Assembly (NCBI GenBank): GCA_011388275.1
Contig: DSAB01000077.1
Span: 1-33,045 of the forward strand
Origin: a bacterium
GTDB taxonomy: Bacteria; Zhuqueibacterota; QNDG01; DSAB01
Length of the DNA: 33,045 nt
Direction of reading: 5' to 3'
Shown one piece after another: positions 1-30,701 of this stretch. Below the pieces are notes generated by a model. It made no database searches and was not told the origin of the DNA. It was given only the letters and a program-made list of their open reading frames with translations. Within the stretch, counting starts at the first letter, position 1; every line of letters begins with the position of its first letter. The position numbers and the translations under genes were made by a program.

Positions 1-10
1 ACCCCTTCGC

Positions 11-50
11 TATTTCGCCTTCGGCGGACAAGTCCGCCTGCGGCGAAATA
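11..50. repeat. 40-base inverted repeat at the left edge
   Basis: Two nested inverted arms are visible: TATTTCGCC (11-19) pairs with GGCGAAATA (42-50), and GGCGGAC (23-29) pairs with GTCCGCC (32-38), separated by TTC/TGC bulges and a 2-base centre. It would form a stable cruciform or RNA hairpin. No T-run follows on the plus strand, so I do not call it a terminator of an off-window gene, although that cannot be excluded because the flanking gene is outside the window. Confidence 0.6.
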
Positions 51-128
51 ATGCCCTCCCCCCAATCCATGGTTGTAACATAAGACTTGTCCATCGCAGG
101 AAAAAGGGAAAAGGCAAACCCATTCTTT

Positions 129-191
129 CCGCTTTGCGCTTTGCGCTCTGCGTCTTTCCGATCCGCAATCCGCAATTCGAAATCCGCAATG
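129..191. repeat. Degenerate 7-bp tandem repeat array (copy 1)
   Basis: The sequence divides exactly into heptads: CCGCTTT, GCGCTTT, GCGCTCT, GCGTCTT, TCCGATC, CGCAATC, CGCAATT, CGAAATC, CGCAATG. Translated in any frame it gives spurious low-complexity peptides, so open reading frames here are not genes. A related array lies at 505-560. In both cases the array is followed by a CGCAATGCTTTT segment, a T-rich stretch and a TTGAC motif, which suggests a duplicated intergenic element. Confidence 0.7.
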
Positions 192-280
192 CTTTTTCTT
201 CCACCGCTGTCGGATTTTTCAGGCTTGACTATACAATCATTTACGGATGCCTCCGGCGGGGTACTTAATGCGGTCCTGCA

Positions 281-428
281 GACCGCGACCATGGACCACA
301 GACCGCGGACCGCAGTCGGCCTTCGGCCGAGACAATAGACCACAGACCATCGACCGTGGTCGACCATCGTCTGTCGTCTATGGTCTATGGTCAGAACATC
401 GTCCGCCATCCATCGTCTATGGTCTAAT
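281..428. repeat. Inverted array of 7-bp repeats (GACCATN / ATGGTCT)
   Basis: From 287 to 314 the units start GACC every 7 bases. After a small GGCC-TTC-GGCC hairpin (318-328) the phase shifts by two, and units start every 7 bases from 331 to 428. The left half reads GACCACA, GACCATC and GACCGTG. The right half reads ATCGTCT, GTCGTCT, ATGGTCT and ATGGTCA, which is the reverse complement consensus. The axis is the palindrome GGTCGACC (358-365). No gene is supported in this stretch. Confidence 0.7.
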
Positions 429-504
429 AACAGGGTGTTCGCTCGGATTGCGTTCACGAGACGGCCATTTTTCTGAGGCCGGAAATAAACAAAACTGTCT
501 TTTT

Positions 505-560
505 CTTACGCTATGCGCTCCGCGCTTCGCATCTTTTCAATCCGAAATCCGCAATGCTTT
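505..560. repeat. Degenerate 7-bp tandem repeat array (copy 2)
   Basis: The heptads are CTTACGC, TATGCGC, TCCGCGC, TTCGCAT, CTTTTCA, ATCCGAA, ATCCGCA and ATGCTTT. It has the same composition and order of unit types as the array at 129-191 (GCGCTTT-type units first, then CCGCAAT-type units), and the same downstream CTTGAC-containing tail. The array ends only 23 bases before the -35 box of the promoter at 584. Confidence 0.65.
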
Positions 561-583
561 TCTCCACTTCATGTCGATTTTAC

Positions 584-612
584 TTGACATTGAATATTAT
601 TATTGGTATATT
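584..612 (+). promoter_or_regulatory. Sigma-70-type promoter for the secreted-peptide operon
   Basis: A perfect -35 box TTGACA (584-589) is separated by 17 bases from TATATT (607-612), one base off the consensus -10. Transcription would start near 619-620. It is the strongest promoter-like sequence I see in the window and points at the peptide operon, whose first start codon is about 340 bases downstream. Confidence 0.7.
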
Positions 613-618
613 TTCGCA

Positions 619-950
619 GGCATTGACGAATAAACTGGGTTGTTAGCCTGTTTCGGTCCTCGCGAAGCCTTCAGGCAGCGATTCAGCCGCAGACCCCGTG
701 ACACATTTCTTCAAATGGATCTCCCTTCGATCCCCGCACGGTGTGATCCTTCGACTCGGACACCTGTGCAGGAGAACCGGCGGGAGCGGGAAAGGGCCTG
801 TTAGAGACGAAGAGCTTTAACAGGTCCATCCCGCCCGCTGATTACAGAACATCATTTATGATACACAAACCAATGGTTTCGTTCAACGCCTTATGTGTTT
901 TCCCTCCGGCCGCAAACGAATGCCGGATCCCCTGAACCCTTTATCAGTAT
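619..950 (+). promoter_or_regulatory. Long structured 5' leader, possible riboregulator
   Basis: No convincing gene lies between the promoter and the first peptide. Several hairpins are visible: GCCTG (646-650) with CAGGC (672-676), with TTCG/CGAA pairing inside; GGATC (717-721) with GATCC (729-733); CCGTG (696-700) with CACGG (737-741) around it; and a large hairpin in which CCTGTTA (797-803) pairs with TAACAGG (818-824), extended by GCGGG/CCCGC. The CCTGTT at 647-652 could also pair with AACAGG at 819-824, so two alternative folds are possible. I do not recognise a known riboswitch class, and no T-run follows the last hairpin. The leader assignment is inference from promoter position and hairpins. 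Confidence 0.4.
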
Positions 951-961
951 GGAGGTGACCC

Positions 962-1204
962 ATGATACAGAAAAAACCGAAATTTCCGCGCTGGAGCGTT
1001 GTTTGGTTCCTTTTGTTTCTTCTCTTGCTGCAACTTCCTGCTTCGGCCGGAGAAGAGGCCGGCGTGAAGGACGAATGCCTGAAGGCTCTTCTGAAATGCG
1101 GCGGGACCACGCTTTTCACAGCCTTTGGGGGATGGATTCCGTTTCTGGTTTCTTCCACTTTCTGTCTGAACGGATATGCCTGGTGCATGATGTATTTTCA
1201 ATAA
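962..1204 (+). CDS. Secreted four-cysteine peptide 1 (unknown family)
   Basis: 80-residue precursor. The start is set by an excellent ribosome binding site, GGAGGTGA (951-958). Residues 1-29 form a signal peptide: basic start, long Leu/Phe core, PASA cleavage motif. That leaves a mature chain of about 51 residues beginning GEE. Four cysteines fall at 39, 46, 68 and 75, as two CX6C pairs; the second is CLNGYAWC followed by MMY. Cysteines seven apart sit on one face of a helix, so a disulfide-stapled two-helix hairpin is plausible (inference). The next gene is a clear paralogue. It is not a known bacteriocin, lipoprotein or toxin family that I can name. The beta-propeller and thioredoxin-like genes downstream suggest a partner and a disulfide-handling enzyme. 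I am confident it is a gene and ignorant of its function. Confidence 0.75.
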   Translation: MIQKKPKFPRWSVVWFLLFLLLLQLPASAGEEAGVKDECLKALLKCGGTTLFTAFGGWIPFLVSSTFCLNGYAWCMMYFQ

Positions 1205-1215
1205 AGGAGCATCAA

Positions 1216-1434
1216 ATGAAAACGATACACAAAGCGCTGATCGGTTTATTTGCCGCCGTCATGATCAGCGGCAGTGCGATTGCCGGTGAAGCGGATAATC
1301 TCGAGCGCTGCAACGCGGCGCTGAAAAGATGTCTGGCCTATCCCCCGCCGAGCACTTCAGTCATACTGGGTGAAACGGACGGATGGTTGTTTTGTTTCGC
1401 GGGTTATGCGTTCTGCATCTCCTACCTCATATAA
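1216..1434 (+). CDS. Secreted four-cysteine peptide 2, paralogue of the preceding gene
   Basis: 72-residue precursor starting 11 bases after the previous stop codon. Its AAGGAG site (1204-1209) overlaps that stop by one base. Residues 1-23 are a signal peptide ending in AIA, and the mature chain starts GEA and is about 49 residues. Cysteines at 32, 39, 60 and 67 repeat the CX6C...CX6C layout with a 20-residue spacer (21 in peptide 1). The second pair, CFAGYAFC followed by ISY, matches peptide 1 over C-x2-GYA-aromatic-C-x2-Y. The spacer differs, with a PPPS stretch instead of GGTT. Paralogy with a conserved cysteine frame and a diverged middle suggests a two-component or diversified peptide pair. 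The family is not recognised. Confidence 0.75.
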   Translation: MKTIHKALIGLFAAVMISGSAIAGEADNLERCNAALKRCLAYPPPSTSVILGETDGWLFCFAGYAFCISYLI

Positions 1435-1596
1435 AACATCGATTTCCGACGAAAATGTGTCGATGGAGAATCCAGGAATGATGCACGCAGCAGCACAACG
1501 TTTTATCATTGTAATGGATCCAAACCCATGCAAGTATGCAGACGGATCCGAAATCGTGCTGCCCGAAAAAACGGATTATTCTGATTGAAGAAAAAC

Positions 1597-1631
1597 AGCC
1601 GGCCGGAGTCTTCATGAATCTCCGGCCGGCT
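1597..1631. terminator. Perfect 12-bp stem-loop between peptides and propeller gene
   Basis: AGCCGGCCGGAG (1597-1608) and CTCCGGCCGGCT (1620-1631) pair perfectly around an 11-base loop. On the plus strand no T-run follows, so it may attenuate transcription or protect the 3' end of an abundant peptide mRNA. On the minus strand it is followed by GTTTTTC, which is a better intrinsic-terminator shape, but no minus-strand gene ends here. The region 1435-1671 otherwise holds no gene I can support. Confidence 0.5.
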
Positions 1632-1671
1632 CAAGCCAAAGCGCACACGATGGACTGGCAAGGAGAAACCC

Positions 1672-2661
1672 ATGTATCGAACGATTCGGCTTTTTATCAT
1701 CATCTGTTTATCGTGTTTCCTTTTCACCGGACCGGAAACCGCGGAATGCCGTGAGCCCTGGCGCATTCACACGGAAGAGATCTGGAATATCGGCGGCGAA
1801 GACTCCGATCTGATTATTCAATGGGTTGGTCTTGCCGTGGATCAGGAAGGTTGTATCTTTCTTACGGACCGTATGGACTATTCACTGAAAAAGTTTTCTC
1901 CCGACGGTGATCTGCTGGCCAGAACCGGCCGCAGGGGTCAGGGGCCGGACGAATTCCTGGATCCATGCCAGGTGTCTTGCCTGGGTGACCGTATTTATGT
2001 TTCGGATATACAGAAACCCGGTCTGAGCGTGTATGACAAACGGCTGAATTATCTCGGTCAAATCATGATTCCCCACGCGGTTTTTTCTTTACAGGTCATG
2101 GATTTCAACACGATCTGGATTTCCAGCATGATGCACACAGACCGGCCGATGATGATGGCCTTCGACAGTCTGGGCACACTGAAACAGTCCCTTTTCCCTC
2201 ACTTTTCCCTGAAAAAGAGTTTTATTGAAATGACATCTTTTCAATGGCAGGATCCGGACACAGTGCACGTTGTTTTCCACTGGTCGGGACGGACATGCCG
2301 CTTTCACCGCGATGGAAGACTGCTGTGGGAAAACCGTGAATTGGAAAAACGAAAACCGGAGACAACGGTCATCAATGATATTCAGGTGCCTGTCGGAATC
2401 GCCCTGAAAAACATTCAAACCGATCCTTACGGACATCTCTTTGTCCTGGGCGGCAGCGAGATGCCGAATCCGGGTCGGGATATATTTGTCATGGATAAAA
2501 ACGGGAAGATATGCGGTCAATTCACCCTTGAGGAATCGAGCCATATGATTCTCATCGATGAAAAGGGTTATCTCTATTCGCGGGGTGACATGGGCATGAG
2601 TCTGATTAAACACCGCCTTGATTATCCTGACGCCATGCTGCCCGCTGAAAGGCGGTATTAA
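1672..2661 (+). CDS. Secreted 6-bladed beta-propeller (NHL-like) protein
   Basis: 329 residues, start supported by AAGGAG seven bases upstream. The N-terminus (about residues 1-25) is a hydrophobic export signal. The rest shows propeller-blade repeats typical of the 6-bladed NHL/TolB-like group: units such as VDQEGCIFLTD, KKFSPDGDLL, IYVSDIQKPGLSVYD and ILIDEKGYLYS. It also has the diagnostic GRRGQGPDEF turn near residue 85. Such proteins act as extracytoplasmic binding scaffolds and no enzyme motif is visible. It lies 237 bases downstream of the paired cysteine peptides and is translationally coupled to the thioredoxin-like gene that follows. A role as receptor or chaperone for the peptides is inference. 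In Bacteroidetes, propeller proteins are likewise found beside small leader-bearing peptides (NVEALA type), but those lack the cysteine pattern seen here. Confidence 0.8.
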   Translation: MYRTIRLFIIICLSCFLFTGPETAECREPWRIHTEEIWNIGGEDSDLIIQWVGLAVDQEGCIFLTDRMDYSLKKFSPDGDLLARTGRRGQGPDEFLDPCQVSCLGDRIYVSDIQKPGLSVYDKRLNYLGQIMIPHAVFSLQVMDFNTIWISSMMHTDRPMMMAFDSLGTLKQSLFPHFSLKKSFIEMTSFQWQDPDTVHVVFHWSGRTCRFHRDGRLLWENRELEKRKPETTVINDIQVPVGIALKNIQTDPYGHLFVLGGSEMPNPGRDIFVMDKNGKICGQFTLEESSHMILIDEKGYLYSRGDMGMSLIKHRLDYPDAMLPAERRY

Positions 2662-3134
2662 TGGACTGCTGGTGGAAATTCTGGTGGCTGCTGACAATGT
2701 GCTGCACACTCCTCGCCGGACAGCCGAAAAAAACATCACGAAAATCGCTTCCGCCTGTCCGAACCGTTTGCGCCGTTCTGCTGCTTTCTTATTCGGATTA
2801 TCTGTGTCCGCTGTGCCTTCAGTCTTTCCTGCAAACAGCCGATTCCCTAAACTCCTGGCCCGGATTGCAGACATGGTGCGTCCTGATTGGTGATTCAGAA
2901 ACTTTTATGGGCATACCCGCTCAGATTGTTCGTGCGCAATTCAAAGGCTGGATAGCCGCATCGGGTTTGAATTTCCAGGCCCTGGTGGATGAAAAAGGAT
3001 TTTTAAATACGATGATCCGAGACGGACCTGTTCTTATTGTATTCAGCAAAGGAAGTTTCATCCGCCATTGGAGCCTGCCCCTGAGCCCGAATGATCTGAA
3101 AACAGTAAAAAAATTTATCAAACAGTCTGGCTGA
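2661..3134 (+). CDS. Membrane-anchored thioredoxin-like protein (CPLC)
   Basis: 157 residues. The start codon overlaps the propeller stop by one base (TAATG), so translation is probably coupled. A Trp/Leu-rich N-terminal segment (about residues 4-20) looks like a membrane anchor or uncleaved signal. A hydrophobic strand VCAVLLLSYSDYLCPLC leads into the active-site-like motif CPLC (residues 49-52), as in the thioredoxin/TlpA/AhpC fold. A later GPVLIVFSKG segment (around residue 120) fits the cis-proline strand, followed by a C-terminal helix. It is short and divergent, so a binding-only role is possible. The expected substrate is extracytoplasmic disulfides, and the four-cysteine peptides in the same operon are the obvious candidates (inference). 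Confidence in the fold is moderate to good. Confidence 0.7.
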   Translation: MDCWWKFWWLLTMCCTLLAGQPKKTSRKSLPPVRTVCAVLLLSYSDYLCPLCLQSFLQTADSLNSWPGLQTWCVLIGDSETFMGIPAQIVRAQFKGWIAASGLNFQALVDEKGFLNTMIRDGPVLIVFSKGSFIRHWSLPLSPNDLKTVKKFIKQSG

Positions 3135-3603
3135 TTTTCAGGCATGGTCCAACAAAAACCGCAAATAGCTGTTTAAAATTCTCGAAACAACGGGAAGAGA
3201 AAATCCACCGGCAGGCAGCGGGCAGCAACTCCCTCACAACCCAACAACCGCCCGATCGAACATGCAATACGGGTGAATCCAATGGCCGGGGCGGAATATT
3301 TTCGAAGGTCTGGATCGGGTTTCGGTCTGAAACGGGGCTCGGATCGAATGCGATAAACCGGCCTTCCGCGTGTTCCGCCCGGCTTTCTCGATCTGTTCCG
3401 CTAAAAACATGGGTTGACTTTCAGCGGATCAGTTTACAGCATCATCTCTGCACAAACACCCGAGCACCTGGATACCGGCCGGATGGGGGGGCTTGCCCCC
3501 CCGTTCTTCCCGTTGCAGCATCGAACCCGATCGATCTATGACGATAAAATACAGACCGGAAATCAGGATTATGAGCGGATCTCGACAATAGTTACATAAC
3601 GGG
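3135..3603. other. Gene-free gap with stem-loop structures
   Basis: No gene is supported here; short frames lack ribosome sites and family features. Visible structure: GCCGGGGCGGAA (3285-3296) pairs, with one bulged G, with TTCCGCCCGGC (3373-3383). A GTTTC/GAAAC hairpin lies inside that 99-base span. A separate 7-bp G/C stem, GGGGGGG-CTTG-CCCCCCC, lies at 3485-3502. The last could stall polymerase between the convergent peptide operon and symporter gene, but it has no T-run. Confidence 0.5.
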
Positions 3604-5073
3604 TTATCGATTATTTCTCTCCGGAACGTCTCCGCGCGGGATCAGAACCGTGACCAGAAAACCGACAAGACCCGCGGCAACGAAAGTCATGAATCGGGCC
3701 GTTATTTGCGCATCCATTCCGGAACCGATCCATATGATGGTGAAAACCATGCCGGTGATCATGGTGACCAGAGCCGCCGTTCCGTGAAACCGTTTCCAGA
3801 AAAGGGTATACAGGATTACCACAGAGAATGTCGAGCCGATGCCCGCCCAGACATAACCCACCAGTGTGTAAATAAGATCCGTGGGTGACAGATACGCTGC
3901 AGCCAGGGCGATGACTGCGAGAACAGCCGTAACCAGACGGGCGCGCCGGAGTCTGATCGTTTCACTTTCATCGAATCTTTTCGATCGACCCAGAAGATTC
4001 TCCGACAATTCCGTGGCCGAAAGAATCAGCAGGGAATCGGCCGTTGAGATCATGGCGGCAATGGCGCCTGTGATGAGCAGAGCGGCCAGAGCCGGTGGAA
4101 AGATGCGAAGCATGACGGCAGGCATCACATATTCAGGATCTTCCAGCCCCTGAGGCCCGAACAGGGCGATGCCGATCCAGCCCAGACACAGGGCTCCTCC
4201 ATAAGCGGCCAGCGTCCAGAGAATACCCACATTGCGCCCCTTTTTCGCCTGTTTGCCATCCCGTATGGCCATAAAACGCATACTGAGCTGCGGCTGCCCC
4301 CCCAGATAACCGAAAAACCACGAGAATCCTCCCATCACCGCCACTCCCGCCGCGAAACCCGAGGCGCCTTCGGTCAGAGAAGAATAAGCAGGTCCTGCTT
4401 GTCCGAGTGCCTGCGGAATGGAGGATGCGAACAATCCCGGTGTTCTGGCTATGAAAAGTATGCCGACTGCAGGGCCGACAACCAGGGCGATGATCATGAC
4501 AATAGCCTGAATTACATCCGTATAGACCACGCTGCGGAACCCGCCATAAACGGTATAAGGTACGATAACAAGGGCGGTGATGAGCATGCCCAGACGCGGA
4601 CCGATCCGGAAGAGAGTGTGCAGGGTTTTTCCTCCCCCAAGAAACTGGGCGCCGACATAAAAGAAAAAAAAGAAAACCAGGATCAGGCTTCCGACCGTGC
4701 GGATCGACTTCTCCGCGTCTCCGTGTTTCCTGGCAATATAATCGGTAAAACTGCCCGCATTCAGAGAATCGGCCTCATCACGAAGCCGCCACGCTATAGC
4801 CGCCCAGGCGGTGATGATCCCGGCCATGCATCCCAGGGCCGTCCAGACACCGGTCAGTCCCGAAGCATAGGCAAAACCGGGCAGGCCGAGCAGGGCCCAG
4901 GAAGACTCACCCGTCGCCCTTTCCGACAGCGCGGCCGCCCATCCGGGGAGGCTCCGTCCGGCGATGTTGAAGTCCGAACTGTTCTTGACTTTTCGCCCCT
5001 GGTACAGACCCCACAGAATGAGAAGGCCAAGATAGGCTGCCATGACGACAAGAATTTGTGTCCGGGTTTCCAT
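3604..5073 (-). CDS. Sodium:solute symporter (SSS/PutP-type)
   Basis: 489 residues with about 13 hydrophobic segments, the usual size for the SSS family (PutP, PanF, SglT relatives). Family hallmarks are the N-terminal FNIAGRSLPGWAAALS region (unwound first core helix), the following ATGESSWALLGLPG, and YGGFRSVVYTDVIQA in the middle. These transporters use the Na+ gradient to import sugars, amino acids, sialic acid or vitamins, and substrate cannot be read from sequence. The start has AGGAG six bases upstream. The gene lies 27 bases after the small Cys-rich gene and in the same direction as the sialidase-like lipoprotein and mannosidases. Import of a sugar released by those enzymes is a reasonable inference. 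No partner subunit is present. Confidence 0.88.
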   Translation of the reverse strand: METRTQILVVMAAYLGLLILWGLYQGRKVKNSSDFNIAGRSLPGWAAALSERATGESSWALLGLPGFAYASGLTGVWTALGCMAGIITAWAAIAWRLRDEADSLNAGSFTDYIARKHGDAEKSIRTVGSLILVFFFFFYVGAQFLGGGKTLHTLFRIGPRLGMLITALVIVPYTVYGGFRSVVYTDVIQAIVMIIALVVGPAVGILFIARTPGLFASSIPQALGQAGPAYSSLTEGASGFAAGVAVMGGFSWFFGYLGGQPQLSMRFMAIRDGKQAKKGRNVGILWTLAAYGGALCLGWIGIALFGPQGLEDPEYVMPAVMLRIFPPALAALLITGAIAAMISTADSLLILSATELSENLLGRSKRFDESETIRLRRARLVTAVLAVIALAAAYLSPTDLIYTLVGYVWAGIGSTFSVVILYTLFWKRFHGTAALVTMITGMVFTIIWIGSGMDAQITARFMTFVAAGLVGFLVTVLIPRGDVPERNNR

Positions 5074-5100
5074 GCAAATCTCCTAAGTCTTTTTTCACGG

Positions 5101-5322
5101 CTACCAGGTCGACTTGGGACGCCGCTTGCCGAACCGCAGCGGACAGGGCGCGTTCTTTGTAACATAAGACTCAAGCTTCTCACACCATACGGCGGAAAAG
5201 GTGCGGCAGCTTCCCGCCCCGTCAATATCCGCATCCCCGGGAAAAGAAGCGTGGGGACAGTGATAATCACAAAACAGAACATGAGAGGAAGTCACGCCTG
5301 CGTTGCCGTCGTCTTTATTCAT
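5101..5322 (-). CDS. Small cysteine-rich protein, unknown function
   Basis: 73 residues. Its start overlaps the stop of the DUF2156 gene in an ATGA arrangement, which supports it as a real coupled gene. There is no signal peptide. Five cysteines are arranged as CDYHC near residues 18-22, then GSC, VWC and APC. This looks like a small metal-binding or iron-sulfur-type cytoplasmic protein rather than a disulfide-rich secreted one (inference). The C-terminus is basic (RFGKRRPKS). I do not recognise a named family. The pairing with a DUF2156 protein, and the symporter 27 bases downstream, make an operon of three genes. Confidence 0.6.
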   Translation of the reverse strand: MNKDDGNAGVTSSHVLFCDYHCPHASFPGDADIDGAGSCRTFSAVWCEKLESYVTKNAPCPLRFGKRRPKSTW

Positions 5323-6233
5323 GATGGATTTCCCTCCCGGATTTCCTGAATCGAATACTTTTCCACCAGGCGAAAGGGAAAATAGGATTCTTTCGCCTTG
5401 CGAAGGCCGGGCTCACCGACGTCCTGTTCCCGGTTGATGAACGCGGTTTGGCTCCACGCGTGCTCGCAGAACTGCTGGTTCATTACGGTAAACATCTGCG
5501 GAATTTCCGGATCCGCTTTTTCAACATGAATCACGGCCGTATCCTCATTGAGCATCTCACCCAGGGAAAACGCGGCCACGGCTCCGGAAACGCGAACCAG
5601 CCCTCCCGTCAATTGCAGCGATTCAAAATTAAAGAGCGCCTTGTGAACCGCCTTGCACTCCGCTTTCATCACGGGATTCTCCCGACACTTTCGATGGTCA
5701 CACCATTTCTTCAGGGCTTTCATGCATTCCCTGATTTCACCGGCCGTTATCGGTTCATATGTAAATGACATTGTTCTTTGGATTTTATTGATATGGTTCC
5801 GTTTGGCATGGTAACGTCTTCCTTCCAGGGTCATCAGGTCTCGAGTCCGATACAGATAATCAAAATAATTCCGCACCTGTGATATTTCGAACGGCGCGCC
5901 GGAAAGCTCCCGGACCAGGCGTTCGTCGGCCCGCTCGATGCGCGGAACTTTTCCCCTCTTCTTCTGCCATTGGAAAAGATCGCCGACCAGGGAGGCGCGG
6001 TTATGATTCCCTACGGGAGGGAAAAAGAATTCTCGCTCGTTTTTCTGACTCAGAATGACAAGACAATCGTCCAGAAGACTCCACTTTAGCCCGAAATACG
6101 GCTGCCATATATACAAATTGGTAAATGTCAGTTCTGATGTTTCAGGTCTGTAACGGCTCAGACGGTCCTGAATAATCTCCCTGTCGCTCAGGCGAACGGG
6201 TTCGAAAACGGGAAAAACCGGAGGAGCGGTCAT
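5319..6233 (-). CDS. DUF2156 / phosphatidylglycerol lysyltransferase-like protein
   Basis: 304 residues from the chosen start at 6233, which has GAGG nine bases upstream; an in-frame ATG at 6248 has no ribosome site. The protein matches the COG4866/DUF2156 layout. An N-terminal half carries TFTNLYIWQPYFG. A GNAT-like C-terminal half carries LEGRRYHAKRNHINK, AAFSLGEML, and a closing GEPGLRKAKESYFPFR near residue 285. Relatives contain the aminoacyl-transfer domain of MprF/FemXAB-type enzymes that use aminoacyl-tRNA. The stand-alone form has no membrane domain and its substrate is unknown. It overlaps the small Cys-rich gene by four bases. It sits 42 bases downstream of the sialidase-like lipoprotein gene and is probably cotranscribed with it. 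Confidence 0.8.
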   Translation of the reverse strand: MTAPPVFPVFEPVRLSDREIIQDRLSRYRPETSELTFTNLYIWQPYFGLKWSLLDDCLVILSQKNEREFFFPPVGNHNRASLVGDLFQWQKKRGKVPRIERADERLVRELSGAPFEISQVRNYFDYLYRTRDLMTLEGRRYHAKRNHINKIQRTMSFTYEPITAGEIRECMKALKKWCDHRKCRENPVMKAECKAVHKALFNFESLQLTGGLVRVSGAVAAFSLGEMLNEDTAVIHVEKADPEIPQMFTVMNQQFCEHAWSQTAFINREQDVGEPGLRKAKESYFPFRLVEKYSIQEIREGNPS

Positions 6234-6275
6234 GAATAAAAACCTCATCGATCTGTTTTCGTTTGCAGGGCTCTC

Positions 6276-7640
6276 TTATTGGACGATCACTTCAACCGCA
6301 TCCGAAGCCGGACTCTCGCCTCCCCGGTTTTCCATCGGAGCGCCCCGCGTGGCCACGGCCGTGATCCGATAATAATACGTCGCACCGCCTTGAACGGATC
6401 TGTCCGTAAACCGGCTTTCAGTCGGCGAGGCGATCGCATTTCCGGTCCGGGGATATCCGCCCTGCGGATTAAAATCCGGTTCCATGCCGCGATAAACCAG
6501 ATAATAGACGGCTCCTTCCACGTGATTCCACCGAATCTGCACCCCTGTTCCTGCAAAGAAAGATGCGTGCACGCCGAAGGGAGCGTGAGGTCTTCCAACG
6601 ACAAAGGCGGTCGAGCGGATATAACTTTTTTGATCCGTCAGTGTCACGGTTTCTTCATAATAGACGGCATGGACCCTGTCACCGGTATCACCAATCAGAG
6701 ACGGATAGGCGCAGTCGCCTGCCGCCGACCAGATTTGGGTCTCCGCCTCCCAGGTAATTCCGTCGTTGTAGCTGATCGAGTAACTCACTCCTCGAGGCCA
6801 GAAATCCCTGTAGGCGCACACCATGATACCGTCCGGGGTGACCAGACAGCCCGGAGCCTGCCCCTGTATGGAGGTGGATGCCGGCGCGTTCCAGGACCGG
6901 CCGCCGTCAGAGCTCTGCACGCGATACAGATAGTCATCGGCACCCGCGGTTCGCATGAGACAGACGATCGATCCCGACGGAGAAAGGACGAAACAGGGCT
7001 CCTGAAAGTCGATCCGCTGACCCGGGTCCCTGGCTACGGTGACAATCTCCGTCCACGTGTCTCCGCCGTCCCGGGAAATAACCGCCATGGCTCTCGATTT
7101 CTCTCCGGCGTTGCCGCCGTATACGGGCATCAGGAGAGTTCCATCGGAATAAGTCAGTATTTTCGCCGACGTCGCAGACCACTCCACACCGGGCATGGTG
7201 ATTCTTCTCGGAGCCGTGAAAGATTTTCCGTTGTCGAAACTCCGCACCACAAAACAGCTCACAGCAGCCGGCGCTTTCCCCGGTTCGTCGTACCTGGACT
7301 GAAAGAAACTGATCAGAATCAATCCATCTTCCAGCTGAATCACGGAAGGATCCCGGCAATCCCATACGGAGTTGACAATGGTGTCGGGTTCGGACCACGT
7401 TTTTCCCTGATCCGTGGATACTGTGCGCATGATCACCCCGTCCGGAGAGACATGGCCGCTTCCCTGGCGGTATACGACCATCCACTCTCCGGTTTTCAGA
7501 CGGACGATATCGGGAAAAGCCGCATGAGTCGAAGATTCCACCACAACGCGGTGGCGCATCTCTCCGTATCTGAGGCTTTCGATCTTCGCGCATCCGGAAA
7601 TCAGCCCGATCAGAGCGAATAAAACGATGCTGCGTTTCAT
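6276..7640 (-). CDS. Sialidase-fold lipoprotein with C-terminal fibronectin III domain
   Basis: 454 residues, start preceded by AGGAGG seven bases away. The N-terminus is a lipoprotein signal with ISGC at residues 14-17, so it is probably anchored outside the cytoplasm. At least five Asp-box turns are visible (STDQGKTW, SFDNGKSF, SRDGGDTW, SSDGGRSW, SYNDGITW), marking a six-bladed sialidase/BNR propeller over about residues 30-345. Residues 350-454 form a fibronectin type III domain with the ATYYYRITAVA strand. Members either hydrolyse sialosides or use the fold for other glycans. I see an early arginine-containing strand (DIVRLKTG) but cannot confirm a full arginine triad. Together with the GH92 and GH38 genes upstream it suggests glycoprotein glycan degradation. 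Confidence 0.8.
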   Translation of the reverse strand: MKRSIVLFALIGLISGCAKIESLRYGEMRHRVVVESSTHAAFPDIVRLKTGEWMVVYRQGSGHVSPDGVIMRTVSTDQGKTWSEPDTIVNSVWDCRDPSVIQLEDGLILISFFQSRYDEPGKAPAAVSCFVVRSFDNGKSFTAPRRITMPGVEWSATSAKILTYSDGTLLMPVYGGNAGEKSRAMAVISRDGGDTWTEIVTVARDPGQRIDFQEPCFVLSPSGSIVCLMRTAGADDYLYRVQSSDGGRSWNAPASTSIQGQAPGCLVTPDGIMVCAYRDFWPRGVSYSISYNDGITWEAETQIWSAAGDCAYPSLIGDTGDRVHAVYYEETVTLTDQKSYIRSTAFVVGRPHAPFGVHASFFAGTGVQIRWNHVEGAVYYLVYRGMEPDFNPQGGYPRTGNAIASPTESRFTDRSVQGGATYYYRITAVATRGAPMENRGGESPASDAVEVIVQ

Positions 7641-7711
7641 GAAACATCCTCCTGCCGTAGATTTCGGCTTTGAGTGTTGATGACAAAAATGTTTATATCT
7701 CCCAAACGCCC

Positions 7712-8041
7712 TCAGAATCCGTTTTCACCGGATTGGGCCATATTCATCAGGACCATGCCTGTCAGTATGATGATCCCCCCCAGCACCAGCCCGATTCCAA
7801 GCACGATTCCGACGAGGGTCAGCCAGTCACGGGCGTTCGATGTGCTCCGCCTTCGAACCCAGCTCATGATGATGGTGTCGAAAAAGAGCTTTCCCGTGAA
7901 TATGAGAAACAGGGTGATACCGGCAACCACCCGAACCGCGTCCCACCGGGTCGCGATCCGCTGAAGCGGCCACAACAGCCAGATCACTACTCCCCATTTC
8001 AGAGTTTCGATGAGTATGCCGACCCATTCGCGCTTTTTCAA
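7712..8041 (-). CDS. Small membrane protein, unknown
   Basis: 109 residues, read from a TTG codon; AGGA lies six bases upstream and no in-frame ATG or GTG precedes it before a stop. Three hydrophobic stretches are visible: about residues 10-26 (WGVVIWLLWPL), 37-58, and 73-100, the last glycine- and isoleucine-rich. A basic RRRS loop lies before the last. This fits a small integral membrane protein with no recognisable domain. It follows yraN by 42 bases in the same direction. The coding potential is supported by the hydrophobic pattern and position, not by family membership. Confidence 0.55.
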   Translation of the reverse strand: MKKREWVGILIETLKWGVVIWLLWPLQRIATRWDAVRVVAGITLFLIFTGKLFFDTIIMSWVRRRSTSNARDWLTLVGIVLGIGLVLGGIIILTGMVLMNMAQSGENGF

Positions 8042-8083
8042 TCCGATTCCTGTAATCTTTAACCCATACTCTCAAAAACTTTT

Positions 8084-8443
8084 TCAAAGCCGGAAAGCAT
8101 CCTTGAAATGGGTTATCTCGACCCGGCTTCCCCACTCGATGGCGAGCACGTCGAAGCGGCAGTCCGGTATCTCTGCATTCCGTCTTTCCAGATAATACAC
8201 CGCGGCCCTTCCCAGCCTGCGTTGTTTAGAGGGTGTAACCCGCTCTTCAGGATGACCGTACTCGTCACTCATCGAGGCTTTCACCTCTACGAAGACCAGT
8301 TCGGAACCGTCTGCGGCCACGATGTCGATCTCCCCGAAAGGCGTGTTGTAATTCCGGCACAGGATATTATAACCCTTTTGGGTCAGATATTGGACGGCCG
8401 TTCTTTCTCCCAGCCGCCCTTTCCTCTGATGTCCTCCTCCCAT
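8084..8443 (-). CDS. yraN: YraN/UPF0102 family nuclease-like protein
   Basis: 119 residues from an ATG at 8443 with a perfect AGGAGG six bases upstream; an earlier in-frame ATG (8473) has no such site. The family is a small PD-(D/E)XK endonuclease-like fold. The signature residues are present: [12 protein letters not shown] at the N-terminus, NYNTPFGEIDIVAADG (catalytic Glu and Asp), and LVFVEVKAS (Glu-x-Lys), then RRLGRAAVYYL. In many bacteria it is beside rnhB, as here. Its first 77 bases overlap the end of rnhB in another frame, a larger overlap than usual. The cellular role is still poorly defined; a function in DNA processing or recombination is assumed from the fold. Confidence 0.9.
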   Translation of the reverse strand: MGGGHQRKGRLGERTAVQYLTQKGYNILCRNYNTPFGEIDIVAADGSELVFVEVKASMSDEYGHPEERVTPSKQRRLGRAAVYYLERRNAEIPDCRFDVLAIEWGSRVEITHFKDAFRL

Positions 8444-9101
8444 CTTTTTCCTCCTTTCTCCACCCGCGGACATGAAATGTTTTTCGATGTATTGGACAAA
8501 ACCCGTGAATACGAATCATTTCCACATGATCCCGGGTTCCATATCCCTTGTGCCGGCCGAATCCGTATGTCGGATAGAGGCGGTCGCATTCCAGCATGAG
8601 CCGGTCGCGGGTGACTTTCGCGACAATGGACGCCGCCGCAATCGAAAAACAGAGGCGATCACCGCCGCAAACAGCCGTCTGAACAAAATGGAAATCCGGC
8701 ACGGACTTTCCGTCGATCAGCACATGGTCGGGCTTCAGTGAAAGCCCCTCCACCGCTCTTGTCATGGCCCGGTGAGTCGCCCGCAGAATATTGATTCGGT
8801 CGATCTCATCATGATCCGCAATTCCTATGGAAACCGCCAGGGCGGTTTGATGAATCCGTTCAAAGAGCGTCTCGCGTCGGCTTGGGGTCAGAGCCTTGGA
8901 ATCGCGGACCCCCTCGAGCTTCGTGTGCGAAGGGAAAATCACGGCCGCCGCCACCACCGGTCCCGCAAGCGGGCCCCGGCCCGCTTCATCCACACCGGCC
9001 ACCAGAAAACCCCGCTGCCAGAGAGGCGTTTCAAACCCGGTGTGAGGAAGGTCCTTATCTAAATTCCGGCTGTTCGTACACTCCCCGTTTCCTGCATTCA
9101 T
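8367..9101 (-). CDS. rnhB: Ribonuclease HII
   Basis: 244 residues. It removes ribonucleotides and RNA primers from DNA-RNA hybrids. The catalytic start motif [13 protein letters not shown] lies near residue 37, with [11 protein letters not shown] following. The later acidic positions fall in VLIDGKSVP and [12 protein letters not shown]. The core normally ends at HRKTF; here about 35 further residues, basic and low in hydrophobicity, extend over the yraN start, so the tail may be a by-product of that overlap. The start has GAGG eight bases upstream and overlaps the stop of the GH38 gene (ATGA). A housekeeping gene coupled to a glycosidase gene is unusual. Confidence 0.95.
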
Positions 9102-12100
9102 CGTATAACCTCGATTAAACGAACCCCGAAAGGTGGAACGGCCCGTTCAATAAAACCTTCTCCCCTTCCATAATAAATATCTCCCCGGGCATTAAAAAGC
9201 CGGACCTGCCAGCCGTCCTTTCCTTCCAGGGGCCGGATCGAAGTAATTAGAATTCCCTCGGGCAGATCCAGGCCTTTCAGGGCCGGATCCGGCTCATAGA
9301 ACAAGAGCAGCAGAGGGGCACCGGATTCCATGCCTCTCTTTTTGGCCTCACGCAGGACAAAGGGTCCGTGAGGAAACAGTCGAAAACGAACCGTTACGGG
9401 ACCCGGCTGGGCGGCCCGGTAATTGGTTTCCCAGTAATTGTTCATGACATAGGCAAAAAGCCGTTTCCGGTCATCCGTTTTTTTAAGCCAGCCCACGGCG
9501 ACCGGATCGGCGGTGATGCGTCCGATCTGCACCATGGGCACATCCGGAGTCACCCAGGTGACTCCTCTTGTCTCGTCGGATATATCCACCCATCTCTGAG
9601 GGGCAAAATAATTCTTGCAGGAACCCGGAAGCTGTTCCGCGTCGGGACGGAACACACTCCAGGCTCCATCGATACGCACTTCGCCCTCAGGAAGATTGAA
9701 AGGAAATTCAAAATAGACGGCTTCAGGGTCGAACACTTCCTTTTTATATATCGTATTGATCATTTCCACACGATTCAGACCGTTTATTATCCGGATCTCA
9801 CGAACCAGTGAATCGCAACCGGGCGCCTCCGATATCATTTTAACCGAACGGATCAGCGGTCCCGATTCCCCGGCACGCATTCGAACCGGTTCCGATGTCC
9901 GGACGTTTGACGGGTCTCTTCCTTTCACATACCGGTACACATTCCAGCCGGATCCTTTCTCGTCCACCAGTGTTCCGTATTTCCGATGAGCCGCTTTGTT
10001 AACGCCTCCCGAAACCGGATCCAGATCGAGGGAAAAGCTGCCCGCTGAAAGGCTGAAATCCATCGAGCTTGTTTCGGTTTCTTCCTGCTCTCCCGGCCGG
10101 ACTCTGTAAAGGCGTGCCGCCAGAGCCGGAACCCGGGCAATAAAAACCAGAGAACCGTCTCTCAGACGCTGGGTAGACACGGAATTGCCTTCATCATCCA
10201 CCACCCGGTCTCCAATACGGACCAGGCCCGCATCGAGAATCACGACATCTTCCCGGGGCCAGGAAAGCGTGTTCATCACCCAGACATGCTCTCCGTCAAA
10301 AGGGGATCCGGCGGCCGCTTCTTCCATAAGCCGGAAGGACTCCTCCCGGGCGGTTTCGGCGAAAGACTTCTTGATCTCCCACTGCTGAAGGGTAAAAGGC
10401 GAATGCGGTTCGCTGATGCTGTTCCAGGATCCCCATGTGTGTTCACTGTAGAGAAAAACCTGACGCCAGGCCCGTCCGAACCGCTCACGGGGATAATCCG
10501 AGGGTTTGAGAAGAGACCAGAGAATTTCGGCCTGAACCAGCCGTTCGGCAGCCTGTCTGTTCATGGCCGTTTCACGGGCCGAAGAAGCGGCTCCGTCTTC
10601 CCAGTACCCGGTAAAATCTCCCCTGAACGCGGGAAGAGTATGACCGTACTTCTCCTCGAACACGGAAAAGGCCTCGTCCACCGTGGAAATGATCATGCGA
10701 GGCGACAGAAATTTCTCGTTCCACTCGCTGACCTGGTTTGAGAGCATGGGATCCGGAGGACCGTTGTCCGAACCGATGTTGTAACGGAAAACACCGATAT
10801 CGTAGGGATACCCTTCCGCGTCCAGTTCTCTCAGATAATCGAGAATGGCTTTCTCATGAAGCCGCTTCTGAATACGATGAAATCCCAGTCTGCTGTGAAA
10901 CCAGGAGTACCCCTTTCCCGCGACCCAGCACAGTATTTTCTCTTCACCGGAAGGAGAGATCCAGTAAAAGGGCCGGTCCGCCCAGGTTTCCAAAACATGA
11001 CCGATGCGGTGTCCCGTATTGGTCCCGATGGAAAGATACCGGATGCCCCTTTGAGCCAAAGCCGTCACCAGCCCCCAGCTGGTTCCGGGAATATCCGTGA
11101 TCATGGCGGAAATCAGGGGAACCCCGCAAAGACGGGAGATCTCCACCGCCGGATCGAGCTGACGGAACAGCTCTTCGGACCGGCACAGGCCGGTGAGAAG
11201 ATTCCCGTACAGGGCGTTCAGCCCGATCGATCCGTCCCGAATGGCCTGAATGAAACGATCACGCTTTTTTGGATCCGCACGGCGCAAATAACTGTCCACG
11301 GCCCACATGACCTCCACGTTCCATTTAAACCGGGACTCGGCCGGAAAATCGCGACTGGCGTCGGCCAGGCCCATGGCCGTCTCCAGATGGGACCATTGCA
11401 TGGCTTCCACTTCGGACTGTATGTGGGTGTATCCGATATCCACATGAGAGTGATGCAGGAGGAAGAGGGTCTTTTCCTTTACCGGCATCACTCGTACGGT
11501 ATCGTGCACAGTCCTCGATCCGGGCAGGCGCACACGAACCGGAACCCAGGACTCCTGCCGGACTCTGGGAATGGCTATCTGAACTTCATTATAGCCGATA
11601 TTCAGAGGGGCCTTCACCGTGCCGCCCCCGGCGCGTATCTCGGCATGTCCGGAAGATTCGAAATGCAGTATTCTTACCCGCAAGGGCTGCCGTTCCCCCC
11701 GCCTGAGAATCGCGGGTTCTGAGTCTATAGTCACGTCCCTGTCGAAACCGTTTCGAAACGTCATATACCAGGTACGGCTGCCAGCCGATTCTCCGGCCAC
11801 GGCGAGTCGAAGTCTTCGTCCCGGAGTCAGCATCGTATTCGGGACTTCCAGAAAAGCGTACCCCATGAAATCGCCGTATTTGTCGATGAGCGTGCTTCGA
11901 AAGCGCAGCGACACGCCATGAAGCCCCTTCACCGTCCAGTCGGGACGGGTGGTATCCTCCGGAGTCCGAAAGGTCAAAACAGGCTGTTCATCGATAAAAA
12001 GCCGGAAATTATGCGCATCGGAATTCACATCGATACCGAAAGCCCACACAAACACGGCCGCATCGCCTCGCCGGTCATGCGGAATTGCCCCGGTCTCCCA

Positions 12101-12301
12101 CTCGATGGTCCGGCTTCGGTCCAGTGAACGAACGAGGAGAGAGGTGGTTTGATCCTGATATGGAGAATGGTAGGTCAGTATTTCTCCGGCTATATCCTTT
12201 TCATAGCCCCGAAGCCATTGAACCGCTCCCGCCCGATTCCAGCATCCCGCGTACAGAAGCAGCATTCCGAACATGAAAAACCGCGGTGACATCCTTTTCA
12301 T
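9098..12301 (-). CDS. Exported GH38-family alpha-mannosidase-like protein
   Basis: 1067 residues. The N-terminal hydrophobic segment with YAGC (about residues 16-20) gives export, possibly as a lipoprotein. A beta-sandwich region precedes the catalytic domain. The GH38 metal site motif HHSHVDIGYTH lies near residue 282. A conserved ITDIPGTSWG near residue 400 is the likely nucleophile-aspartate region, and GSDNGPPDP contributes a later part of the pocket. The C-terminal half holds the GH38 beta-sandwich domains. GH38 enzymes are Zn- or Ca-dependent retaining alpha-mannosidases, and this is a divergent branch, so linkage specificity is open. It lies 18 bases after the GH92 gene, implying stepwise trimming of the same mannose-rich glycan, and overlaps rnhB by four bases. 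Confidence 0.85.
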   Translation of the reverse strand: MKRMSPRFFMFGMLLLYAGCWNRAGAVQWLRGYEKDIAGEILTYHSPYQDQTTSLLVRSLDRSRTIEWETGAIPHDRRGDAAVFVWAFGIDVNSDAHNFRLFIDEQPVLTFRTPEDTTRPDWTVKGLHGVSLRFRSTLIDKYGDFMGYAFLEVPNTMLTPGRRLRLAVAGESAGSRTWYMTFRNGFDRDVTIDSEPAILRRGERQPLRVRILHFESSGHAEIRAGGGTVKAPLNIGYNEVQIAIPRVRQESWVPVRVRLPGSRTVHDTVRVMPVKEKTLFLLHHSHVDIGYTHIQSEVEAMQWSHLETAMGLADASRDFPAESRFKWNVEVMWAVDSYLRRADPKKRDRFIQAIRDGSIGLNALYGNLLTGLCRSEELFRQLDPAVEISRLCGVPLISAMITDIPGTSWGLVTALAQRGIRYLSIGTNTGHRIGHVLETWADRPFYWISPSGEEKILCWVAGKGYSWFHSRLGFHRIQKRLHEKAILDYLRELDAEGYPYDIGVFRYNIGSDNGPPDPMLSNQVSEWNEKFLSPRMIISTVDEAFSVFEEKYGHTLPAFRGDFTGYWEDGAASSARETAMNRQAAERLVQAEILWSLLKPSDYPRERFGRAWRQVFLYSEHTWGSWNSISEPHSPFTLQQWEIKKSFAETAREESFRLMEEAAAGSPFDGEHVWVMNTLSWPREDVVILDAGLVRIGDRVVDDEGNSVSTQRLRDGSLVFIARVPALAARLYRVRPGEQEETETSSMDFSLSAGSFSLDLDPVSGGVNKAAHRKYGTLVDEKGSGWNVYRYVKGRDPSNVRTSEPVRMRAGESGPLIRSVKMISEAPGCDSLVREIRIINGLNRVEMINTIYKKEVFDPEAVYFEFPFNLPEGEVRIDGAWSVFRPDAEQLPGSCKNYFAPQRWVDISDETRGVTWVTPDVPMVQIGRITADPVAVGWLKKTDDRKRLFAYVMNNYWETNYRAAQPGPVTVRFRLFPHGPFVLREAKKRGMESGAPLLLLFYEPDPALKGLDLPEGILITSIRPLEGKDGWQVRLFNARGDIYYGRGEGFIERAVPPFGVRLIEVIR

Positions 12302-12319
12302 TGGTCCTCTCCGTATCCT

Positions 12320-15274
12320 CTATTCGACAAGGATCTCGTCCACGAAAATCCAGGCCTTGCCCCCGGCTCCCACATGCCATTCCGGCACCACGGACCGGTT
12401 ATGCGCGTGAACGCGTATATAACGAACGGACACGTTGGGCAATTCCACCATAAAATCCCCGGAAATGCCTCCCCACGCCGTGTCCGCCACGGTATTGACC
12501 ACCCGGCCCGCTCTGGAAAAATGCACGCCGTCACGGGACACCTCTATGACGACCGAATCGGGCATCCAGATCCACGATCCCGCGTCCTGAAGAAATCCGG
12601 CGCCCGCCCCCCTCACTTCCTGCACGGATCCCAGATCGACCACGGCCTGAAAATCGATTCCCTCATAGCCCTGCCACGCACCGTTTTTAAAATTGTTCCC
12701 GCCGCGGATCAAATCGATGAGGGCCTCGTCTCCACCCCCGGTATATTGCGGACTGTACGGGGTTTCGATCTCGACGCGGCGATGGGGCGGATGCCGTGTG
12801 TATTCCGCGGTCACCACGGCGCTCCACCCGTGCACGGGATGACGGGCCCGCGCCCTGACAAGAGTGTGGTCGTAAATCCAGAACGGCGCGGCGGCCTGTG
12901 CGTCCTGATGACCGGGCTCGCGTCCATCCAGAGTGTAATACACCACCGCATCGTCCATGAGGCCGGACACCGTGACTCGCATGGAATCGCTGAAGGTCCG
13001 CGCGTCGGCCTGAATGACCGGAACAGGCACCAGAACCGGTTCGTCGATCGACGAGCGCGGCCGCCAGGAAGGCGCCCAATTTCGTTTGTCCGGACGCCGG
13101 CTCATCGTGAACTCGAGATCCCCGCCCGCCATAATCGCTTCATGGGCCAGCACCAGAGAAGAATGATTCTTCTGATTCAGCTTCATGGACCGGACATAGG
13201 GCCGGTTTCGACTGTTCCCGGGAGCCTGAATCGTGAAAGTTTTTCCATTGTCCAGATGCAAAACCGCCTTCTCAAACCAGGGCGAGCCCAGGACATATTC
13301 CGGTTTTCCCGGTTGAACGGGATAGAAACCCAGGGCGCTGAGAACCAGCCACGCGCTCATCTGCCCGCAGTCTTCATTACCGCATAAACCTTCAGGCGAA
13401 TCATCGTAAAGCGTGTTCATGATTTGACGGACGCGCTTCTGCGTCTTCCATGGCCGGCCTGCATAAGCATAGAGGTAGGCCATGTGATGGCTGGGTTCAT
13501 TGCCATGGGCGTACTGCCCGATCAGACCGGTGATGTCGGCCTGATCCCGGCCCGTGGTCTCGGAGATTTCGTCGAAGAGGGCGTCGAGTTTCCGGATAAA
13601 AGCCTCCTCCCCTCCCATCAGCGCCATCAGCCCCTCCACATCCTGAGGCGCGAAAAATGAATACTGCCAGGCGTTGGCTTCGGTATAGTTGAAACTGACT
13701 TCTCGCGGGTCGAAAGGACTCAGCCAGCCGCCGTTCAGCCGGGGGCGCATGAAGCCTGTGGACGCGTCATACAGATTCTTGTAAGACTGGGCCCACAGCC
13801 TGTATCTACGGGCCGCGTCCTCCAAACCGAGATCTTCGGCCATTCTGGCGATGCACCAGTCGTCATAAGCATATTCCAGGGTCTTGGACACGGATTCCGA
13901 TTCCGCGTCCATGGAGATAAAACCCTGTTCTTTAAACATGTCCAGCCCCAGATGATCGAGTTCGGCGCTGTGCATCATGGCTTCCAACGCCAGTGGCGTG
14001 TCAAAATCGCGCAATCCCTTAAAATAGGCGTCCGCAATTACGGAAACGGCATGGTATCCGATCATACAGCCCGTGTAATTGGCCGCCAGCTCCCACATGG
14101 GAAGCCGTCCGCCCTGCTTATAGTGGATCAGAAGAGTCCGGATAAAATCAAGAGTTCGGTCCGGCTCCAGAATCGTCAGAAGAGGATGCGCCGCCCGAAA
14201 CGTGTCCCACAGCGAGAATACCGTGTAATGCGTATGCCGGTCCGACTTGTGAACGGCCTGGTCCATACCCCGGTAGCGGCCGTCCACATCCATATACAGA
14301 TTCGGATTGAGCAGGGCGTGATACAACGCGGTATAAAAGACCCGGAACTGAGAGGGTGTGCCTCCGGACACCCGTATCCGGCCCAGAGACCGGGCCCAGA
14401 TTTCCCGGGCCTGGTCATGGACCCGGTCAAAATCCCAGTGCGGGATCTCTGCATCCAGGTTCCGCCTCGCCCCCTCTTCATCCACCGCGGAAAGCCCAAC
14501 CTTGACCAGCAGCTCCGAGTCCGTCCCGTCAAAAGTCATGACGGATTTGACATGCCTGCCCCTGAGATCCACTCCCGGTACCGGCATATCGTGATCATAC
14601 AGACCCAGCGTCTGAAAGGGTCTGGAAAAACGGATCACGAAAAAGACCCATTGATCGCGCGCCCAGGAGGATGAGCGCCTGTATCCGGCCAGTTCCCGGT
14701 CGTTCACCTTTCGAATAAAAGAATCCAGAACCGGGTCGCGGTGAGTCAGATCACAGATAACATGGGCAGACTTTCCGCCCGGAAATCGTATCCTGTGAAA
14801 TCCCGCCCGCTGCGTGACCGTCAACTCCACTTCGATTCCGCTTTTCATACGCACACCGTAATGTCCGGGTGAAGCGGTCTCCTCTTTATGGCTGAAGAAC
14901 TCGCCGTATCCCGAACCGGGTGAGTCCGATCCGTTGTTCAGCCTGACCGGACCGGTCATGGGCATAAGAAGAATGTCGGCGTAATCGGGAATTCCCGTTC
15001 CCGACAGATGGGTATGGCTGAATCCGTAGATGACAGAATCGGAATAATGGTATCCGGAACAGCCGTCCCATCCGGTCAGGCGGGTGTCGGGACTCAGCTG
15101 AACCATGCCAAACGGAAGGCTGGGGCCCGGATAGGTATGGCCGTGAGCGCCCGTTCCGATGAAGGGATCGACCCAGTCCACGGGTTCATGAACTATTTCC
15201 ACTTCCCTGTGGCAGGCTGTAAACAGCACTGGAAGTAAAAGCCAGCCCCTCCACAATGCAAATCGTTTATTCAT
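12320..15274 (-). CDS. GH92 alpha-mannosidase lipoprotein with C-terminal F5/8-type domain
   Basis: 984 residues. The leader has LFTAC near residues 17-21, a probable lipoprotein cleavage site. GH92 hallmarks: VDPFIGTGAHGHTYPG (about residue 36), FSHTHLSGTG, EYAYDDWCIA, GNEPSHHMAYLY (about residue 590), and GNEDCGQMSAW, which carries the Glu expected to be the general acid. GH92 enzymes are Ca-dependent inverting exo-alpha-mannosidases acting on N-glycans and yeast mannan. After the catalytic part, a chitobiase-type beta-sandwich (YYTLDGREPG, about residue 780) and a discoidin/F5-8 type carbohydrate-binding domain (about 840-984) follow. The start has GGAG five bases upstream. It leads a string with GH38 directly downstream. 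Confidence 0.93.
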   Translation of the reverse strand: MNKRFALWRGWLLLPVLFTACHREVEIVHEPVDWVDPFIGTGAHGHTYPGPSLPFGMVQLSPDTRLTGWDGCSGYHYSDSVIYGFSHTHLSGTGIPDYADILLMPMTGPVRLNNGSDSPGSGYGEFFSHKEETASPGHYGVRMKSGIEVELTVTQRAGFHRIRFPGGKSAHVICDLTHRDPVLDSFIRKVNDRELAGYRRSSSWARDQWVFFVIRFSRPFQTLGLYDHDMPVPGVDLRGRHVKSVMTFDGTDSELLVKVGLSAVDEEGARRNLDAEIPHWDFDRVHDQAREIWARSLGRIRVSGGTPSQFRVFYTALYHALLNPNLYMDVDGRYRGMDQAVHKSDRHTHYTVFSLWDTFRAAHPLLTILEPDRTLDFIRTLLIHYKQGGRLPMWELAANYTGCMIGYHAVSVIADAYFKGLRDFDTPLALEAMMHSAELDHLGLDMFKEQGFISMDAESESVSKTLEYAYDDWCIARMAEDLGLEDAARRYRLWAQSYKNLYDASTGFMRPRLNGGWLSPFDPREVSFNYTEANAWQYSFFAPQDVEGLMALMGGEEAFIRKLDALFDEISETTGRDQADITGLIGQYAHGNEPSHHMAYLYAYAGRPWKTQKRVRQIMNTLYDDSPEGLCGNEDCGQMSAWLVLSALGFYPVQPGKPEYVLGSPWFEKAVLHLDNGKTFTIQAPGNSRNRPYVRSMKLNQKNHSSLVLAHEAIMAGGDLEFTMSRRPDKRNWAPSWRPRSSIDEPVLVPVPVIQADARTFSDSMRVTVSGLMDDAVVYYTLDGREPGHQDAQAAAPFWIYDHTLVRARARHPVHGWSAVVTAEYTRHPPHRRVEIETPYSPQYTGGGDEALIDLIRGGNNFKNGAWQGYEGIDFQAVVDLGSVQEVRGAGAGFLQDAGSWIWMPDSVVIEVSRDGVHFSRAGRVVNTVADTAWGGISGDFMVELPNVSVRYIRVHAHNRSVVPEWHVGAGGKAWIFVDEILVE

Positions 15275-29365: not shown

Positions 29366-29387
29366 GCAAATCCTCATTGAAGTTAGG

Positions 29388-30691: not shown

Positions 30692-30701
30692 GATTTCGCC
30701 T

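Follow-up and report, generated by a model that had tools for sequence, protein, structure and literature searches.

The 33,045-nucleotide stretch of DNA that we analysed (‘the window’) carries a cassette of four small genes: two encode secreted peptides, PepA and PepB, that each bear a twin CX6C motif, the third a secreted six-bladed propeller, and the last a CPLC protein with a predicted thioredoxin (Trx) fold. The genes of this cassette are conserved, occur together and keep their order in other genomes of the phylum, where Cys-rich peptides beside propellers are linked to MauE, Trx and DsbA genes. The explanation that we prefer, and to which we give about an even chance of being right, is a secreted two-peptide system that would have its own branch of oxidative folding, with the propeller as partner. 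From gene content, the window’s cassette appears to be one member of a phylum-wide family of similar sets. The four open reading frames lie where the original prediction placed them:

584–612, plus strand: predicted sigma-70-like promoter, TTGACA-17-TATATT, with TG before the -10 element
613–961, plus strand: long structured leader before pepA, about 343–350 nt
962–1204, plus strand: pepA, Sec peptide 1 (80 aa), twin CX6C, hydrophobic linker
1216–1434, plus strand: pepB, Sec peptide 2 (72 aa), twin CX6C, more polar linker
1597–1631, plus strand: perfect GC-rich hairpin between pepB and the propeller gene, with no T-run on its 3' side
1672–2661, plus strand: secreted six-bladed propeller (DUF5128/NHL-like)
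2661–3134, plus strand: thioredoxin-fold protein (predicted), CPLC, membrane-anchor-like N terminus

Profile searches covered 82 genomes of the same phylum. A search with the single PepB sequence led to two similar peptides in tandem in a genome from another family of the same order (G004), flanked by the whole set: a CPAC protein and a propeller that, along its length, is 30% identical to that of the window (E 7e-48). A four-peptide profile added one locus in G005 (contig C225) and two in G009, bringing all peptide-profile matches to five loci in four genomes (the window’s own, G004, G005, and G009 twice). At each of the five the order is peptide 1, peptide 2, propeller, CxxC thioredoxin-like protein. 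It had been suggested that a propeller and a CxxC protein should recur beside each match to the peptide pattern; they do so at 5/5 complete cassettes, which upholds the view of the four genes as one conserved unit. With a ten-peptide profile, the ten peptides score from E 1e-15 to 1e-27, with no further match in the 82 genomes passing 1e-3. In the same genomes, the Trx profile returns the same five loci plus one extra, G013 (E 9e-9). The propeller profile there gives the five cassette propellers 470–490 bits, followed by G013 with 148; no other match exceeds 76. The original prediction named two arrangements that would count against it: the peptide pair standing alone was not found in the 82 genomes, and a propeller with Trx but no peptides was encountered only at G013, as a MauE-Trx fusion on a 6.3-kb contig.

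Because the cassette propellers are merely about 30% identical, and the Trx proteins 18–24%, we consider the linkage to be old. At these scores the peptides, the Trx and the cassette propeller are all absent from eight further genomes of the order, which include the sole other sampled genome of the window’s own family; ordinary propellers are present in one of the eight (G010). No extra copies of the peptide pair were found in the window’s own genome (G000). Two narrow propeller patterns, which distant relatives could escape, matched the G009 and G004 loci alone among 84,980 species genomes, and plasmid searches returned a single distant match for the propeller (Chlorohelix) and distant matches only for one sister propeller. 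Low-scoring peptide matches in other families of the phylum (E > 0.001) were dropped, since they did not reappear in the profile search.

Sec-like N termini and cysteine frames bear out the description of PepA and PepB as secreted paralogues with twin CX6C motifs. The frame is C-x6-C-x21-C-x2-GYAWC in PepA and C-x6-C-x20-C-x2-GYAFC in PepB, and shuffling each mature sequence 20,000 times never produced the motif. An AlphaFold model of mature PepB, built from eight sequences, is a helical hairpin (helices 23–41 and 54–71; pLDDT about 91 around the cysteines) in which each helix would carry one CX6C (C32/C39 and C60/C67), the members of each pair being seven residues apart on the same helix face. 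This modelled placement fits a hairpin stapled C1–C4 and C2–C3, as would be needed. A PDB search with peptide sequence and fold gave no significant match, and no Pfam or NCBIfam model matched PepA, PepB or the scanned sister peptides above cut-off. In their predicted two-helix hairpin with two cysteines per helix, the peptides resemble CHCH proteins (twin CX9C/CX3C) and α-hairpinins, but they differ in their CX6C spacing and bacterial Sec export, and have no sequence relation to either. A dedicated oxidase is a further plausible point in common.

Another observation concerns the linkers between the two CX6C motifs: at the five loci, those of the first peptide are 21–29 aa long with GRAVY values of 0.99–1.28, and those of the second 13–23 aa with values of -0.27 to 0.83. 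At all five, the linker of peptide 1 is at least as long as that of peptide 2, and more hydrophobic. This contrast suggests two different roles. A tree of the ten peptides is weak and does not split peptides 1 and 2 into separate clades.

The propeller, originally described as six-bladed, matches Pfam DUF5128 (PF17170) above the curated cut-off (E 5.4e-7; 29.5 bits against 22.9; residues 48–193), and all five cassette propellers match this family at E ≤ 0.01. The companion claim of a coupled CPLC protein with a thioredoxin fold stood in part: the CPLC motif is present and the ATG shares 1 nt with the stop codon of the propeller gene (TAATG), whereas the fold is thioredoxin-like in a low-confidence AlphaFold model (pLDDT 64.6; topology b-a-b..b-b-a, with CPLC at a helix start) and a Pfam scan of the window protein gave no match. 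Its relatives match Redoxin/AhpC-TSA weakly; their active-site motif is CPLC, CPAC or CSLC, that of the window protein LCPLC. The best Foldseek matches of this low-confidence model are ResA/CcmG/TlpA-type proteins (E 7e-3). ResA/CcmG-type proteins usually reduce, and from a CPxC motif alone an oxidase, an isomerase and a reductase are indistinguishable.

The ResA and CcmG matches are what would be expected if the four peptide cysteines held a metal or an Fe-S/heme centre, with the Trx-like protein keeping them reduced for loading and the peptides acting as small electron carriers or metal chaperones: ResA, CcmG and TlpA keep cysteines reduced for cytochrome c or oxidase copper sites, and four cysteines in two pairs could bind one metal ion. 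We nevertheless regard a metal site as unlikely. The mature peptides (ten compared) lack CxxC, CxxCH and an invariant His or Met; MauE, and DsbA in one sister set, accompany the propeller/Cys-peptide sets; and the sister peptides, with about 6–12 cysteines in unrelated frames, resemble disulfide-rich peptides more than a single metal site.

Several observations back the original proposal that the last gene handles disulfides: G013 has a MauE-Trx fusion, MauE lies beside both G009 cassettes, a sister set contains a DsbA-like protein, and Cys peptides and MauE tend to occur together at propellers. The two fusions are:

L083 (G013:C181), 2021–2995: fusion of MauE and a thioredoxin domain, immediately following the propeller
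L034 (G009:C70), 6605–7522: MauE-rhodanese fusion, just after the cassette

In G013, the nearest relative of the cassette propellers is followed by a single protein that joins a MauE domain (PF07291, E 6e-17) to a Trx domain, the latter aligning with the cassette Trx at an HHalign E of 8.7e-8; within the 82 genomes this is the only member of the cassette Trx family outside the five cassettes. In G009, where the rhodanese fusion follows one cassette, a MauE gene lies just upstream of the other. MauE is absent beside the cassettes of the window, G004 and G005, and is encoded elsewhere in each of these three genomes. Among the propeller-profile matches, 15 of 83 propellers have MauE within 5 kb, where 0.58 would be expected, and MauE is on the propeller’s strand in 15/15. 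Association thus gives good support to a disulfide role: MauE stands beside propellers and a sister set contains a DsbA-like protein.

No Cys peptide is recognisable near the G013 propeller on its 6.3-kb contig. This locus, the many propellers that have no peptides, and the coupling of propeller and Trx, tighter than that of any other pair, would all fit a unit like NHLRC2/SOQ1 with a general part in redox or envelope maintenance, the peptides being neighbours with a function of their own. NHLRC2 and SOQ1 show how a six-bladed propeller and a Trx domain can join into a single unit, with a conserved cleft (PMC6107167). The cassette propeller profile reaches SOQ1, to which the Trx model also shows a weak match. 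The cassette differs in that its Trx and propeller are two overlapping genes rather than one fused chain, in having CPLC and not the CC(I/V)NC motif of NHLRC2, and in the added peptides; NHLRC2 homologues have been reported to lack conserved neighbours (PMC6107167). With the peptides present in 5/5 cassettes, and nowhere without a cassette in the 82 genomes, a general unit with incidental peptide neighbours seems to us improbable.

Cys-rich peptides of other kinds also lie beside propellers in what we call sister sets, listed here with the AraC-type proteins that lie upstream of three peptide/propeller sets:

L035 (G000:C70), 4–2382, minus strand: MauE, a redoxin, a DUF5128 propeller and a Cys-rich Sec peptide in the window’s own genome, near a contig edge
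L129 (G035:C29), 329–10722, minus strand: three consecutive sets of propeller and Cys peptide
L084 (G009:C53), 515–13535, minus strand: a Cys-rich Sec peptide, then a run of at least seven propellers
L032, 9417–9896: AraC-type DNA-binding protein (PF12833) upstream of a set
L033, 6887–7252: AraC-type DNA-binding protein (PF12833) upstream of a second set
L132, 266–664: AraC-type DNA-binding protein (PF12833) upstream of a third set

In the own-genome set, the redoxin matches AhpC-TSA (E 2e-13) and the cysteine frame of the Sec peptide differs from twin CX6C. A kinship between this redoxin and the cassette Trx was rejected, as comparison showed no real similarity. The G035 row contains two MauE genes, one of them a rhodanese fusion; MauE and the propeller of its first set flank a DsbA-like protein (PF01323, E 2e-15). 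Tandem propellers are also found in L085 (G017:C78).

We scanned 1.2 kb each way from 61 different propellers for small Sec-like open reading frames with at least four cysteines. The propeller’s strand had 33, at 25 of the 61 propellers, and the opposite strand 4; when three MauE entries and two peptides shared by neighbouring propellers (double counts) are taken out, 28 distinct same-strand peptides remain. In the full count, the density is 0.24 per kb near propellers vs 0.02 per kb at propeller-free loci, some of the scanned loci having been chosen for a nearby MauE; the opposite-strand control is unaffected by locus choice. Among 29 propeller-profile loci picked regardless of MauE, which are not phylogenetically independent, a Cys peptide is present at 7/8 propellers with MauE near and at 6/21 without (Fisher p 0.0097). 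Three of these six loci without MauE are the cassettes of the window, G004 and G005, which have Trx instead. The original prediction knew of no set with this cysteine frame: the twin CX6C version does appear to be new, but, with many sister sets in the same genome and phylum, it is not unique in kind.

The hypervariability of the sister peptides, the invariant order of two unlike peptides in the cassette and the Gly/Ala-rich hydrophobic linkers of peptide 1 also call to mind a two-component antibacterial pair, for which the propeller would be the immunity or neutralising protein. Candidate RiPP clusters of Streptomyces (decRiPPter) likewise have MauE/MauD homologues beside their precursor peptides, on which these are proposed to act (PMC7794033); in the portion of that report available to us a propeller is not mentioned, the phylum is another one, and the cassette peptides differ in being Sec peptides. 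We doubt the antibacterial interpretation: the cassettes have no dedicated transporter, protease or modifying enzyme, PepA, PepB and the sister peptides match no known bacteriocin families, and the propellers are soluble and secreted, unlike usual immunity proteins.

A propeller, a Cys-rich small subunit and a Trx-like protein are also parts of the mau operon. The cassette has such a combination, with MauE adjoining it in G009, and could on that ground encode an amine-dehydrogenase-like enzyme with the propeller as heavy subunit and the peptide as a disulfide-rich cofactor subunit matured by MauE/MauD-like proteins. This idea fails, and we give it hardly any credence, because the ten peptides compared have no invariant Trp for TTQ or CTQ. 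Moreover, the DUF5128 propeller is six-bladed, in contrast to the seven-bladed MauB; no MauA or MauB family match is present in the cassette; MauE is not adjacent to it in the window; and no MauG-like gene was noticed beside the sets.

For the oxidative-folding system that we prefer, we hypothesize the following course. Both peptides would be exported via Sec, lose their signals and fold as short antiparallel helical hairpins, each helix bearing one CX6C, with C1–C4 and C2–C3 as the expected disulfides. The coupled, membrane-anchored CPxC protein would make or proofread these disulfides, acting on the peptides in the oxidising direction, and its electrons would pass to a MauE-type membrane protein. 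The propeller, co-produced with the oxidoreductase, would be the peptides’ partner, either as a holder during folding or as a carrier in the mature complex; that it binds the peptides is suggested by gene linkage and by analogy to NHLRC2/SOQ1. Its basic role may be something else, since many DUF5128 propellers have neither a Cys peptide nor MauE nearby. A broader proposal, which we put forward tentatively, is that throughout the phylum dedicated oxidases, namely MauE together with Trx or DsbA, mature hypervariable disulfide-rich secreted peptides that each have their own six-bladed propeller, and that in the window’s two-peptide version unlike hairpins cooperate. If this is true, the two unlike hairpins might serve contact signalling or competition between cells.

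In Bacteroidetes, small peptides of the NVEALA type are encoded beside propellers. The cassette shares with them small secreted peptides next to DUF5128-type propellers, and differs in the absence of the NVEALA leader, in the twin CX6C frame and in the constant pairing; PF14055 does not match PepA or PepB, and neither in the own genome nor in ten relatives that carry such sets did any protein pass its cut-off. In the literature that we searched, we found no description of the arrangement of peptides, propeller and Trx, and no paper for NVEALA or for MauE together with a six-bladed propeller; articles on DUF5128 or six-bladed propellers, judged by their titles, include none on such a system. 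As far as our tools show, the twin CX6C pair in this gene order is new, and the cassette is a variant of a loosely known peptide-plus-propeller arrangement. Propeller genes beside small peptides have been annotated in large numbers, with to our knowledge no known function. Here, a fusion, gene neighbourhood and statistics tie propeller/peptide genes to disulfide chemistry and offer a testable claim, namely that propeller and oxidoreductase serve a secreted Cys-rich peptide, for which the window’s cassette of four small genes, its peptide pair conserved, is a compact model.

Concerning expression, the near-perfect promoter of the original prediction corresponds to the predicted site at 584–612, which scores 11/12 against a sigma-70-like consensus; about 1% of shuffled versions of the 960-nt upstream region yield an 11/12 promoter on the same strand. 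The leader folds with an MFE of -124.5 kcal/mol (z -3.85), and the window has no match to Rfam families. The hairpin at 1597–1631 has 12-nt arms, AGCCGGCCGGAG/CTCCGGCCGGCT, and forms 14 pairs when folded; it could set the relative expression of the peptide and propeller genes. Ribosome-binding sites are good for each gene but the last, that of the CPLC protein. A single transcript for all four genes is no more than plausible from this layout, because the structured leader precedes pepA and the hairpin separates pepB from the propeller gene. Co-transcription is indirectly supported, as the pepB–propeller gap, 237 nt in the window, is merely 54–81 nt in the four other cassettes.

Elsewhere in the window, positions 1–560 are free of genes and dense in imperfect direct and inverted repeats (GACCATCG..., ATCCGCAAT...). 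A glycan-degradation group lies on the minus strand at 6276–15274 (BNR/sialidase-like, GH38-like and GH92 proteins), and hydrogenase maturation genes lie on the same strand at 28355–33035 (an AIRS-domain protein that is HypE-like, HypD and HypF).
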